Source of the DNA: Sulfuritalea sp.
GTDB lineage: Bacteria > Pseudomonadota > Gammaproteobacteria > Burkholderiales > Burkholderiaceae_C
NCBI GenBank assembly: GCA_021737875.1
Contig: JAIPDD010000011.1
Location: 1 to 33,198, forward strand
Direction: 5' to 3'
Length of the DNA stretch: 33,198 nt
Shown: in pieces, positions 27,696-33,022 of the stretch
Layout: each line of letters starts with the position of its first letter
Numbering within the stretch: position 1 is the first letter of the stretch
The notes under the pieces: model-generated
Databases searched by the model: none
What the model saw: the letters and a program-made list of their open reading frames with translations, nothing else
Told to the model about the DNA's origin: nothing
Position numbers and translations under genes: made by a program

Positions 27696-27722
27696 AAAAA
27701 AAAAGTCACCCGAAGGTGACTT
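27696..27722 (-). terminator. Strong intrinsic terminator oriented on the minus strand (distal of a tandem pair)
   Basis: Minus-strand reading AAGTCACC-TTCG-GGTGACTTTTTTTTT: 8-bp stem, C(UUCG)G tetraloop, long U tract; no comparable U tract on the plus strand. Confidence 0.8.
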
Positions 27723-27743
27723 AAAAAATCTCCGAAGAGACTT
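27723..27743 (-). terminator. Second intrinsic terminator on the minus strand (proximal of the tandem pair)
   Basis: Minus-strand reading AAGTCTC-TTCG-GAGATTTTTT: C(UUCG)G tetraloop, about 7-bp stem including one G-U, U6. Confidence 0.65.
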
Positions 27744-27908
27744 CGTTGGAACTGGAAACCCTTTGCAAAAACTGTGACAGCAGTGTGTGAACTTTAGAGG
27801 CGTTTGCACGAAAGCGGTATCCCCCAAATGGGTGAAAATCAGGATGGCTTGTGTTTTTTTTGCGTCCTTTTTCGATTAAATCAAGGAATCAGAGAAAATC
27901 AGAGCCCT

Positions 27909-29162
27909 ATGCCGACCCATGCACCGAAACCCAACGCCCCTTTAGTGGCTCCTCCCGTATTGCGCCCCCGGGGGTCTAACCATGTGGGCATGCGCCAGTT
28001 CAACGAGCGGGTGGTTTTGCAGGCGATTCGTTTGCATTCCAGTGTGCCCAAGGCGGAGTTGGCGCGGCTCACCGGCTTGAGCGCCCAAACCATTGGACTC
28101 ATTACCACCCGGCTCGAAGACGATGGCTTGGTGATCCGCCATGCCCCCGTGCGCGGGCGCATTGGCCAACCTTCGATTCCTTTGGCGTTGAACCCCGACG
28201 GCGCGTTTGCGCTGGGTATCAAAATCGGGCGGCGCAGTGCCGACTGGTTGTTGGTGGACTTTACCGGCCAAGTGCGGCAACGCGAAAGCCTGCCCTATGA
28301 CTTTCCTGATGTGGCGACCCTGCTGCCCACCATTGCGCAGCATATGCATGCCATTCAAAAAGGCATGGGCGACTTGGCGCCTCGGATGGTTGGCGTTGGC
28401 GTGGCTGCGCCCTTTAATTTGGGCGGCTGGCACAAAATGCTCGGCCTGTCGCAGGCGGTGTTTGATCCGTGGAACCGCATTGATTTGTGTGCCCAGGTTC
28501 AGGCCATGACCGAGACGCCTGTGAGTTTTGCCCGCGACACCCAAGCCGCTTGCGTGGCGGAGTTAGTCGCTGGACGCGGGCGCGATTTGAAAAGTTTTTT
28601 ATACCTTTTCGTGGATACCTTTGTGGGCGGGGGCATGGTGATCAACTCCCATCTTCACGGGGGAATTCATGGTAATGCAGGCGCTGTCGCTTCCTTGCCC
28701 TTGCAAGTGGCCAGCCCCCAAGCCCCGGCGATGGACAACGCCCCGCCAGAGCAATTGATTTCAATGGCGTCCTTGTGGGATTTAGAGCAACGGTTTTTGG
28801 CTGTGGGGTTGGAGCCCAGCGCTGCCTATGACGAGCGTGCAACAGATGGGCCCTATGCAGACCACACGGCGGCGTGGATTGACCGGGCTGCCTTGGGCTT
28901 GGCGCAGTGCGTGGTCAGCGGCACGGCCTTTTTGGACCTCGATGCCGTGGTCATTGACGGATCGTTCTCACGCACCATGCTTTCTCGTTTGATCGCGCAG
29001 ACCACTGCAGCGCTAGAGCGGTACAACTGGGAAGGTCTGTGGCGAACCCGCTTGATTGCCGGAGACATTGGCTCAGATGCGCGCGCTTTGGGCGGCGCTT
29101 TGCTGCCTTTGCACGAAAACTTTGCGCCTGACCAGGGTTTGTTTTTAAAGGCGCTGGCGTGA
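27909..29162 (+). CDS. ROK family transcriptional regulator (N-terminal HTH)
   Basis: HTH VPKAELARLTGLSAQTIGLITTRLEDDGLVIR then ROK domain (ALGIKIGRRSADWLLVDFTGQV, GGGMVINSHLHGGIHGNAGAVASLPL); start 27909 preferred. Confidence 0.87.
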   Translation: MPTHAPKPNAPLVAPPVLRPRGSNHVGMRQFNERVVLQAIRLHSSVPKAELARLTGLSAQTIGLITTRLEDDGLVIRHAPVRGRIGQPSIPLALNPDGAFALGIKIGRRSADWLLVDFTGQVRQRESLPYDFPDVATLLPTIAQHMHAIQKGMGDLAPRMVGVGVAAPFNLGGWHKMLGLSQAVFDPWNRIDLCAQVQAMTETPVSFARDTQAACVAELVAGRGRDLKSFLYLFVDTFVGGGMVINSHLHGGIHGNAGAVASLPLQVASPQAPAMDNAPPEQLISMASLWDLEQRFLAVGLEPSAAYDERATDGPYADHTAAWIDRAALGLAQCVVSGTAFLDLDAVVIDGSFSRTMLSRLIAQTTAALERYNWEGLWRTRLIAGDIGSDARALGGALLPLHENFAPDQGLFLKALA

Positions 29163-29169
29163 CGCCGTG

Positions 29170-29886
29170 CTAAACAGATCTTTGATTCACGCGCAGAGAA
29201 AGCGCTTGGGCTGACTCTTTGCGCTCGCTGTAGCGATCGACCAAGTAGGGTGCAACATCGCGGGTCAGCAGCGTGAACTTCACCAGTTCCTCCATCACAT
29301 CAACCACCCTGTCGTAATAAGCCGATGGCTTCATGCGGCCGTCTTCTTCAAACTCTAAGAATGCTTTCGCAACGGAACTTTGGTTTGGAATCGTGAGCAT
29401 CCGCATCCAACGCCCGAGGATTCGCATTTGGTTCACTGCATTAAAGGATTGCGAACCTCCGCAGACTTCCATCACGGCCAAAGTTTTTCCCTGCGTCGGG
29501 CGAACAGCGCCCACGGACAAAGGGATCCAGTCAATTTGACTTTTCATGATGCCCGTCATGGCGCCGTGACGCTCTGGAGAGCACCACACCATGCCTTCAG
29601 ACCATGCAGCCAAGTCACGTAACGCTTTGACCTTTGGATGTGTATCGGGTGCGGCGTCGGGTTGTGGCAGATCCAAAGGATCAAACACCTTCACCTCTGC
29701 GCCCATAGCGTCCAAGAGTCTGGCAGCTTCTAAAGTCAATAGCTTGCTGTAGGAGCGCTCACGCAGTGAGCCATACAACATTAAAATTCTTGGCGGATGT
29801 GTCGACACTTGGTGAGCTGCTAGCAAGGCCTGCTGAGGGCGCTGGAAGCAACGCTCATCAAGAAGGGGTAATTTATCAGTGACCAT
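29170..29886 (-). CDS. arsH: ArsH-type NADPH-dependent FMN reductase
   Basis: [80 protein letters not shown]; start [11 protein letters not shown] at 29886 overlaps the arsC stop by 11 nt. Confidence 0.94.
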
Positions 29887-30301
29887 GGACACGCAAGCCC
29901 CCTTCATTGACGACAACTTCACCGTCTTCTTTGGTAAATGCACCACGCTGTGGATTTTCAAGGATATCGAGCACCGCCTCGGATGGTCGGCACAACTTGG
30001 TTCCAATGGGCGTCACAACAATTGGACGATTGATCAGGAGGGGATGAGCCACCATGAAATCCATCAGTTCTTCATCTGACCATTGTGGGTTTCCTAAATC
30101 CAATGCCTCGTAAGGCGTGTCTTTTTGACGAAGCACATCCCTGACAGGAATCGACATATCAGAAATCAACTTTTGGAGTTGGTCTTTGGAAGGTGGTGTC
30201 TCCAAGTACAAAACCACCTCGGGCTCAACGCCTGAATTGCGAATCAGGGCCAATGTATTGCGGGATGTACCGCAGTTCGGGTTATGAAAAATAGTGATCA
30301 T
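29876..30301 (-). CDS. arsC: Arsenate reductase, glutaredoxin-coupled (ArsC/Spx family)
   Basis: [22 protein letters not shown] catalytic Cys; [22 protein letters not shown]. Confidence 0.95.
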
Positions 30302-30318
30302 TTGAATTGCTTGTGTGG

Positions 30319-31512
30319 TTACTTTTTCGCGTTAATTGCGTACAGGGCGCAAACAGATAGAACTCCAAGTGCGAAGGTTAGTCCTAGCGCTCCCGCTCCC
30401 CAATGGGTTAACGCCACTCCAAAAATCCATGGCGCAAATGCAGAGCTTAATCGTGCAGGAAACATGATCCAACCTTGTCTGTAGCCGTATCCGCCAGGGC
30501 CAAATAGCGCAAGCGGCAAAGTTCCTTTGGCGATGGTCAGTACACCATTGCCAGCCCCATGCAGAAATGCAAAAACAGGTGCTACGACTGGCCCAAAAAG
30601 CGCCAACAAGAGAGCGCCTAAGGGATGCGCCATTGCCGCAAGACGGGCTGAAAACAAGGGATGCATTTTGCGCAATAGCCCAAACTCGAAAATTCTTGCC
30701 AGCACCTGAGCCGGTCCAATGATGGCGCCAATGGCGATCGCGGCGACCAAGCTGACGCCAGTTGCTTCTAACATCCTTGGCCAGTGTGATGCCATCGCAG
30801 TGCTTGTAAACCAAGTTGCCGAGAACACAAAAGACAGAATGAGGGTCTGTTTCCATGGTGGCGCGGTCTCTTCTTTTGATGGCGCAGTCGGCGTGTTTGT
30901 TGGAGTCTTAAGACCTTCACTTGCATACGAAATAGCCGAACGCTTGAGAGACGATAGCCAGTCAATTGCCAAATTAAGCGGCAAGGCTAGCAATAAGTGC
31001 AACAAAGCCCATGTCCAACAAGCCTCTCGCCACCCCCAATAACTCAGAATCCACCCGCTCAATGGCCAGCCAACCGTACTTGCAAAGCCTGCAATGAGCG
31101 TGATACCAGTAATGGCAGATCTTGCATCTTGTCCGTAAATTCGAACCAAAGTTGAAAACGCTGACTCATACAGCCCGCCTGCCATGCCCACGCCAATCAC
31201 GAACCAAGAAAGATAAAGCGCAAACTCACTATTGGCAAATCCGAGAAGGGCTAGGCCACCTGCAAACAAAATATTTGATGCTGGCAATACCCTGTGTCCG
31301 CTCAATGAGTCGATCGCCTTTCCAAACACAGGACCGAACACAGCGGAGACTACAAGAGCCATCGAAAACGCCAAATAGAAATCTGAGGCGTCAATTCCTA
31401 AAGTCAGAGAAATTGGATTGGCAAGAATGGCAGGTAAGTAATAGGTAGAGGCCCAAGCGATGGTTTGCGTCACTCCCAAACTCGCGACTAATGGCCATGA
31501 CCTGCGCACCAT
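30319..31512 (-). CDS. Major facilitator superfamily transporter in the ars operon
   Basis: 397 aa, about 12 hydrophobic segments; between aqpS-like and arsC with 7- and 17-nt gaps; substrate unknown. Confidence 0.85.
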   Translation of the reverse strand: MVRRSWPLVASLGVTQTIAWASTYYLPAILANPISLTLGIDASDFYLAFSMALVVSAVFGPVFGKAIDSLSGHRVLPASNILFAGGLALLGFANSEFALYLSWFVIGVGMAGGLYESAFSTLVRIYGQDARSAITGITLIAGFASTVGWPLSGWILSYWGWREACWTWALLHLLLALPLNLAIDWLSSLKRSAISYASEGLKTPTNTPTAPSKEETAPPWKQTLILSFVFSATWFTSTAMASHWPRMLEATGVSLVAAIAIGAIIGPAQVLARIFEFGLLRKMHPLFSARLAAMAHPLGALLLALFGPVVAPVFAFLHGAGNGVLTIAKGTLPLALFGPGGYGYRQGWIMFPARLSSAFAPWIFGVALTHWGAGALGLTFALGVLSVCALYAINAKK

Positions 31513-31519
31513 AGACAGA

Positions 31520-32179
31520 CTAAGGCTTGTGCTTATCGTTGTACGCCAAGGCCTGGTGCAATGCCAATCCTAGCGCACCACCAATGAGCTGCGCAACCAT
31601 AAAGGCAGGTACATCAGAAGGTGCGATCCCTGCAAAGGTGTTGCTAAGCATACGTCCGAAGGCTGCGGCTGGATTTGCAAAAGAGGTACTGGCAGTGAAC
31701 CAATAAGCTGCACCAATGTAACAAGCCACGATAGACGATGCCTTGCCCTCCGGGGAGCGCAAAATTACGAATAACAAACCACCTGTTGCCACTGCTTCAG
31801 CAAACCACTGCGCTGGGCCCGTTCTGACTTTTGCGGACCATTGCAGTATTTCAAGCTCAAACATTGCATGGGCTGCCCAAGCGCCCAAGGCGGCGCCAAT
31901 GAGTTGCGCAACCACATAGCCAATCAAATGGTGGCGCGCTAAGTCTTTGCGAAACGCCATGACCATTGAAACAACGGGGTTGAAATGCGCGCCACTGATA
32001 GGCCCAATCGTCTCGATCAACACATAGAGAGCAAAGACGGTGGCAAGCGTGTTGGCTAAAAGCGCAATGGCGGTGTTCCCACCTGCCAATTGCTCTGCCA
32101 TGATGCCCGAGCCAATCACGGCACACAACAAGGCTGCCGTCCCAACCAGCTCAGCAAAATAGCGCCTCCAATGGATCAT
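31520..32179 (-). CDS. MIP/aquaglyceroporin family channel, AqpS-like
   Basis: ISGAHFNPVVSMVMAF (first box NPV) and SFANPAAAFGRMLS (second box NPA); starts within the arsC stop (4-nt overlap). Confidence 0.9.
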   Translation of the reverse strand: MIHWRRYFAELVGTAALLCAVIGSGIMAEQLAGGNTAIALLANTLATVFALYVLIETIGPISGAHFNPVVSMVMAFRKDLARHHLIGYVVAQLIGAALGAWAAHAMFELEILQWSAKVRTGPAQWFAEAVATGGLLFVILRSPEGKASSIVACYIGAAYWFTASTSFANPAAAFGRMLSNTFAGIAPSDVPAFMVAQLIGGALGLALHQALAYNDKHKP

Positions 32180-32691
32180 TTTTTAGCCAGTTCGCGTGCC
32201 GTATTTTCCAAAGCCATTTTGCTGAGGCTTGTTAAAGGTAGGCTGGTGAAGAGTTCAAGACGCCTTTTGATTTGATGCAGCGTTTGCTTGAACGCGTCTA
32301 GTTTTTGCTCATCCGTTCCAGCTGTTTCTGAAGGATCTGCATAGCCCCAATGGGCTGTGGCGGGCTGGCCTGGCCAATAGGGGCACACTTCGCCAGCTGC
32401 GTTGTCGCACACCGTGATCACCAAATCCATGTGAGGCGCATCTGGTGTCGCAAAAACATCCCAGCTTTTGCTGCTTAAACCATCCGTTGGGATTCCCGCT
32501 TTATCCAGTGTGGCTATGGCCATCGGATTGGGTTTTTGATTGTCCTTGGGGCTGCTGCCCGCTGAAAAGGCTTTGAATTTGCCTTTGCCTAGATGGTTTA
32601 ACAATGCCTCAGCCAAAATGCTTCGCGCCGAATTGTGCGTGCATAAAAAGAGAACAGTCAAAGGTTTTGCATTAGTCATTGTGGATTCCAT
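32176..32691 (-). CDS. arsC: Arsenate reductase, low-molecular-weight protein tyrosine phosphatase type
   Basis: VLFLCTHNSARSILAEALL (CX5R loop), VCDNAAGEVCPYWPG, WGYADPSETAG; the ATG at 32679 is an alternative start. Confidence 0.94.
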   Translation of the reverse strand: MESTMTNAKPLTVLFLCTHNSARSILAEALLNHLGKGKFKAFSAGSSPKDNQKPNPMAIATLDKAGIPTDGLSSKSWDVFATPDAPHMDLVITVCDNAAGEVCPYWPGQPATAHWGYADPSETAGTDEQKLDAFKQTLHQIKRRLELFTSLPLTSLSKMALENTARELAKK

Positions 32692-32695
32692 AGGT

Positions 32696-33022
32696 TCAAC
32701 AGGTTTTACAAATATCTTCAGGACTCACCTCGCAGGCGTCTCCTTGGCAACAGTTTTGCGACAGGTACGCCAGAACAGCATTCATGCGGTCGTACTGCGC
32801 TCGGTAAATCAGGTTGCGACCACTGCGCTCCTGAGAAATCAGATCGGCGTGCATCAACTCTTTCAAGTGAAATGAAAGCGCATTGGCGGCGATGCCTAGC
32901 GCTTGCGCCAGCAAAGCAGGCGTTAAGCCTTCATTGCCTTTAACAACCAAGGCGCGAAAAATCTGCAGCCGATGGGGCTGGGCCAATGCGGCAAGGGCGG
33001 CGATGACGAATTTATCTTCCAT
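32696..33022 (-). CDS. arsR: ArsR/SmtB family arsenic-responsive repressor
   Basis: Winged HTH (LLAQALGIAANALSFHLKELMHADLISQERSGRNLIYRAQ); Cys-rich tail NCCQGDACEVSPEDICKTC; first gene of the ars cluster. Confidence 0.95.
   Translation of the reverse strand: MEDKFVIAALAALAQPHRLQIFRALVVKGNEGLTPALLAQALGIAANALSFHLKELMHADLISQERSGRNLIYRAQYDRMNAVLAYLSQNCCQGDACEVSPEDICKTC

Follow-up and report, generated by a model that had tools for sequence, protein, structure and literature searches.

A predicted small RNA gene with its own promoter layout ends at a pair of UUCG hairpins beside the ars cluster of Sulfuritalea sp.

The window considered here is a 33,198-nucleotide stretch of DNA from Sulfuritalea sp. 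(contig JAIPDD010000011.1). At 27696-27743 it carries two terminator-shaped hairpins that are read on the minus strand and lie between two plus-strand genes, DUF423 and ROK, which raises the question of which transcript ends there. The original prediction favoured read-through from the ars genes, antisense to ROK, and gave as its alternative an unannotated minus-strand small RNA (sRNA) arising from the 27745-27908 interval. It is the alternative that is well supported by conservation, covariation and a promoter layout of its own, and the sequence evidence indicates that 27835-27697 on the minus strand is very probably a gene in its own right, encoding a small non-coding RNA about 88 nt long.

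Both hairpins are present at the predicted place. Hairpin 1 occupies 27744-27725 on the minus strand (GAAGTCTC-TTCG-GAGATTTT), and hairpin 2, at 27722-27703 on the same strand (AAGTCACC-TTCG-GGTGACTT), runs straight into a 9-T tract at 27704-27696, which is read from the sequence as the U tract (9 U) of an intrinsic terminator. The 59-nt hairpin pair folds at -19.0 kcal/mol, compared with -9.6 +/- 2.3 kcal/mol for shuffled sequences (z -4.1, 0/200 as good), and a terminator scan of the window lists both hairpins. When either is read on the plus strand there is no T run at its end, so the hairpins do not serve DUF423, as had been argued. Their description as 'tandem terminators' holds for this sequence but not for its relatives, in which hairpin 1 is followed by ATTTACAAG or ACTTTTCAAAG instead of a long U tract. 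Indeed a U tract behind hairpin 1 was found in this genome only, and only hairpin 2 is therefore regarded as the terminator; on this alignment the tandem arrangement is a feature of one sequence, the family-wide form being one structural hairpin and one terminator.

A 271-bp query matched its own genome and 23 of 60 relatives. In the nearest relative the match spans most of the unit, and in the others it covers only the hairpins or another block that precedes them on the minus strand. Once oriented, the matches align as one unit consisting of TTCACCCGAATGGGGGATACC, about 17 nt, TAAAGTTCA, CTGCTGTCACAGT, a variable linker, GGTTCCAACGAAGTC, hairpin 1, hairpin 2 and the T run; this small RNA unit matches relatives independently of its flanks, and its conserved length, promoter and 5' hairpin included, is about 140 bp. 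Using 18 sequences from the genus, RNAalifold proposed three helices unaided. Across 48 sequences from the family, 13 of the 18 pairs in the three hairpins were changed on both sides with pairing kept (68 cells): 3/4 pairs in the 5' hairpin, 4/6 consensus pairs in hairpin 1 and 6/8 in hairpin 2, where 100% of cells are paired. None of 500 shuffles reached the observed value on any of five measures, and sliding the partners destroyed the signal, giving values that were far lower. The 5' hairpin (ACUG-CUGUCA-CAGU; 27771..27784, minus strand) is closed by CTG/CAG in most sequences and by TCG/CGA or TTG/CAA in others, around the loop CUGUCA. Both U-G and G-U pairs are present in the minus-strand RNA (one pair of hairpin 1 is U-G 25 times). 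Read from the other strand they would become C-A mismatches, which fixes the minus strand as the one transcribed, independently of the U tract. Conserved RNA structure with covariation support is thus found here, as expected of an independent sRNA gene.

The RNA would extend over 27784..27697 on the minus strand (about 88 nt), with its 3' end at the U tract and its 5' start, placed from promoter spacing, at or near the A before CTGCTGTCAC, at about 27784. Two covariance models match 27697-27784, with E values of 5.7e-12 (R1, built from 18 sequences) and 1.4e-12 (R2, built from 48), the window sequence being among those from which they were built. The unpaired stretch UUCCAACGA (27743..27751, minus strand) is a candidate target-pairing region. 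Its CCAACGA is found in 48/48 sequences and GCUGUCAC of the 5' hairpin is invariant in the aligned set, an invariance that is partly by construction for the letters of GCTGTCAC and CCAACG, the motifs by which the 48 sequences were collected; paired positions outside these motifs were free to vary. A short form of 84-90 nt with a shortened linker is seen in the window (27697-27784) and at loci L002, L036 and L040, and in most relatives the RNA is 106-144 nt long.

The distribution of the RNA was assessed with both models under Infernal's stricter filters and with some candidates per genome scored, such that all counts are lower bounds: at least 75 of 301 family genomes (48 of 141 genera) with R1, and at least 85 of 100 genomes of the genus with R2, including 47 of the 49 with at least 90% completeness and low contamination. 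Order-wide, R2 matched 7 of 250 genomes: two belong to the family (the genome that holds the window and one more), and the five outside it have weak matches (E 4e-5 to 1e-3). Most family genomes are missed at the thresholds used, which suggests either that the gene is patchy or that the model is too narrow. A pattern scan picked out named genomes of Rhodoferax, Hydrogenophaga, Curvibacter, Polaromonas, Ramlibacter, Hylemonella and Caldimonas; those pattern matches in unrelated phyla that were looked at are without a T-run terminator and resemble chance matches. Two strong copies of the RNA were observed in each of genomes G589 and G597. When the window and 20 relatives were compared with Rfam 15 at gathering and permissive thresholds, no family was found above its gathering cut-off, and a search of the open-access literature found no published description of the small RNA.

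Upstream of the RNA lies a promoter layout that consists of a 16-18 bp palindrome (TCMCCCnnnYGGGGGAT), 21-22 bp, and a TAAAGT- or TACAGT-like -10 hexamer just ahead of the 5' hairpin, the gap from palindrome to hexamer being fixed at 21-22 bp in 44 of 48 loci. In the window the palindrome TCACCCATTTGGGGGATA, a probable activator site, is at 27818..27835 on the minus strand, centred about 43 bp upstream of the predicted +1, and the -10 box TAAAGT is at 27791..27796 on the same strand. Column counts over the 48 loci revealed no conserved -35 box. This explains the earlier remark that no clean sigma70 promoter was visible: the promoter escaped notice because it is without a -35 box and uses the upstream palindrome instead. 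The -10 box and operator at fixed spacing thus provide, as sequence evidence, the promoter of its own that an independent sRNA gene should have. The palindrome (pattern TCMCCCNNWYGGGGGATR) has up to 17 occurrences per relative genome, counting both strands, while a reversed control pattern matched once in G195 and nowhere in the other 19 of the 20 genomes. In G186, G015, G007 and G182 further genes carry the full 45-bp layout (palindrome, gap, TANANT), a set that resembles a regulon whose activator sits at about -43.

Elsewhere in relatives (loci L199-L282) the palindrome often stands 21-22 bp ahead of a -10-like box, and the genes that bear it, named by eye, encode secreted or surface proteins, a type I exporter, sensory kinases and a TM2-domain-like protein. 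It is also seen upstream of epsA in G001 and G033 (L223 and L220), as in G007 (L221). The LuxR-type protein EpsA (TIGR03020) was considered as the activator and rejected, as site-rich genomes are without EpsA and most epsA genes are without the motif: numerous sites are present in G186, which gave no EpsA match at E <= 1e-25, G182 is likewise not among the matching genomes, and of 30 epsA loci scanned only that of G007 carries the motif, the other 29 being without it. The adjacent OmpR-type regulator was considered as a further candidate for the activator and may still be it; with the strict pattern, no palindrome was found elsewhere near this regulator.

The genes around the RNA vary (kinase, ROK or other) while the RNA unit persists, and this variation bears on ars read-through, in which the hairpins would end an ars 3' extension running antisense through ROK, such that arsenic induction silences ROK in an excludon-like manner. 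ROK and arsH are convergent, with ends at 29162 and 29170 and stop codons 7 bp apart, and at their junction the terminator scan found no terminator-like site and the fold is unremarkable (z about 0.5), all in agreement with the original prediction; a terminator further downstream would halt such read-through. The ars cluster itself (29170-33022) comprises arsR, two arsC types, an aquaporin, an MFS exporter and arsH. The order in the window is ars genes, ROK converging on ars, sRNA and DUF423, whereas in G034 and G023 it is kinase, ROK converging on the kinase, sRNA and waaF; at these two closest comparable loci, both free of ars genes there, a kinase gene thus takes the position that the ars cluster occupies in the window. 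The comparison that had been proposed, of ROK and terminator synteny without ars, therefore finds the terminator kept. In an ars excludon the terminator would serve the convergent ars operon, but terminator, RNA body and promoter are conserved in relatives without adjoining ars genes, next to ROK or the kinase; the RNA gene is hence taken to be independent of ars. Read-through also gives the conserved promoter and 5' hairpin no role. As the main explanation it is highly improbable and, on these comparisons, unnecessary, although occasional ars read-through may happen to stop at the hairpins.

In most relatives a second source of the RNA can be envisaged, namely processing of a 3'-UTR fragment from an upstream mRNA. 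In 80 of the 100 loci with enough flank, the gene immediately preceding the RNA on its strand codes for a HAMP/HisKA/HATPase sensor kinase, and the coding match mostly stops 70-250 bp short of the RNA. An OmpR-like regulator gene is near the RNA in two loci; the kinase and regulator are OmpR/EnvZ/RstB-like. The kinase is present in G026, G023 and G034, but a search of the window's own genome, which is 82% complete, did not find it. That the RNA is mainly such a fragment is nonetheless very unlikely: a conserved promoter lies between kinase and RNA, and both the window and G023 have ROK as the upstream gene, oriented the other way, so that there is no upstream mRNA to process. Intrinsic terminators with UUCG loops are common, and the element might accordingly be a dispersed terminator or repeat without RNA function; with one copy in its own genome and one in most relatives, and with about 140 bp conserved including promoter and 5' hairpin, this can hardly be credited.

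For the independent sRNA gene, the following course of events may be proposed. The palindrome, at about -43, is probably the binding site of a dimeric activator that brings RNA polymerase to the -35-less promoter, and the transcript would start at about 27784 and fold into the 5' hairpin, the unpaired UUCCAACGA, the middle hairpin and the terminator hairpin with its U tail. We infer both that the small RNA is expressed and that an activator exists. The RNA most likely pairs with mRNAs elsewhere, and would do so in trans, probably together with Hfq, by way of the CUGUCA loop or the conserved CCAACGA stretch. When genomes were scanned for TCGTTGGAA near ATG, i.e. for sites complementary to the unpaired stretch, no gene was found that the genomes share, and comparison of the RNA with the start regions of neighbouring genes found no consistent pairing. 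We tentatively suggest, as a possibility rather than an expectation, that the RNA is an output of an undescribed Comamonadaceae regulon, in which a palindrome-binding activator at -35-less promoters also controls secreted or surface proteins, a type I exporter and sensory kinases, and that the RNA links this regulon post-transcriptionally to envelope genes beside the two-component system.

With trans-encoded, intrinsically terminated RNAs of the RyhB and GlmY class the predicted RNA shares a length of about 90-120 nt, its own promoter, a 5' hairpin, a conserved unpaired stretch and a U-tailed terminator. It does not belong to a common sequence family with RyhB (20.7 bits vs a gathering score of 55), and its likeness to the Burkholderia sRNA ncS54 (RF02871) is confined to the terminator region (17.0 bits vs a gathering score of 43). 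GlmY is described as an sRNA whose gene lies beside the QseEF two-component genes and whose promoter is activator-controlled (PMC8745638). The present RNA gene resembles it in adjoining two-component genes and in its predicted activator-controlled promoter, and differs from it in that the kinase and regulator are OmpR/EnvZ/RstB-like, the palindromic operator is a different one and the neighbour has been lost in the window. The locus has in common with excludons the convergence of arsH and ROK without a terminator between them; what sets it apart is that the RNA ending at the hairpins is served by a promoter of its own and is also present where ars genes are absent.

Where hairpins stand without an obvious gene, comparison with relatives thus offers a better explanation than assumed read-through. 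For a family of bacteria common in fresh water and soil, what emerges is a well-defined small RNA without an Rfam entry, with its promoter predicted and the genomes in which to test it clearly delimited. A recurring activator-like site has come to light as well, and the search for its regulator can begin.
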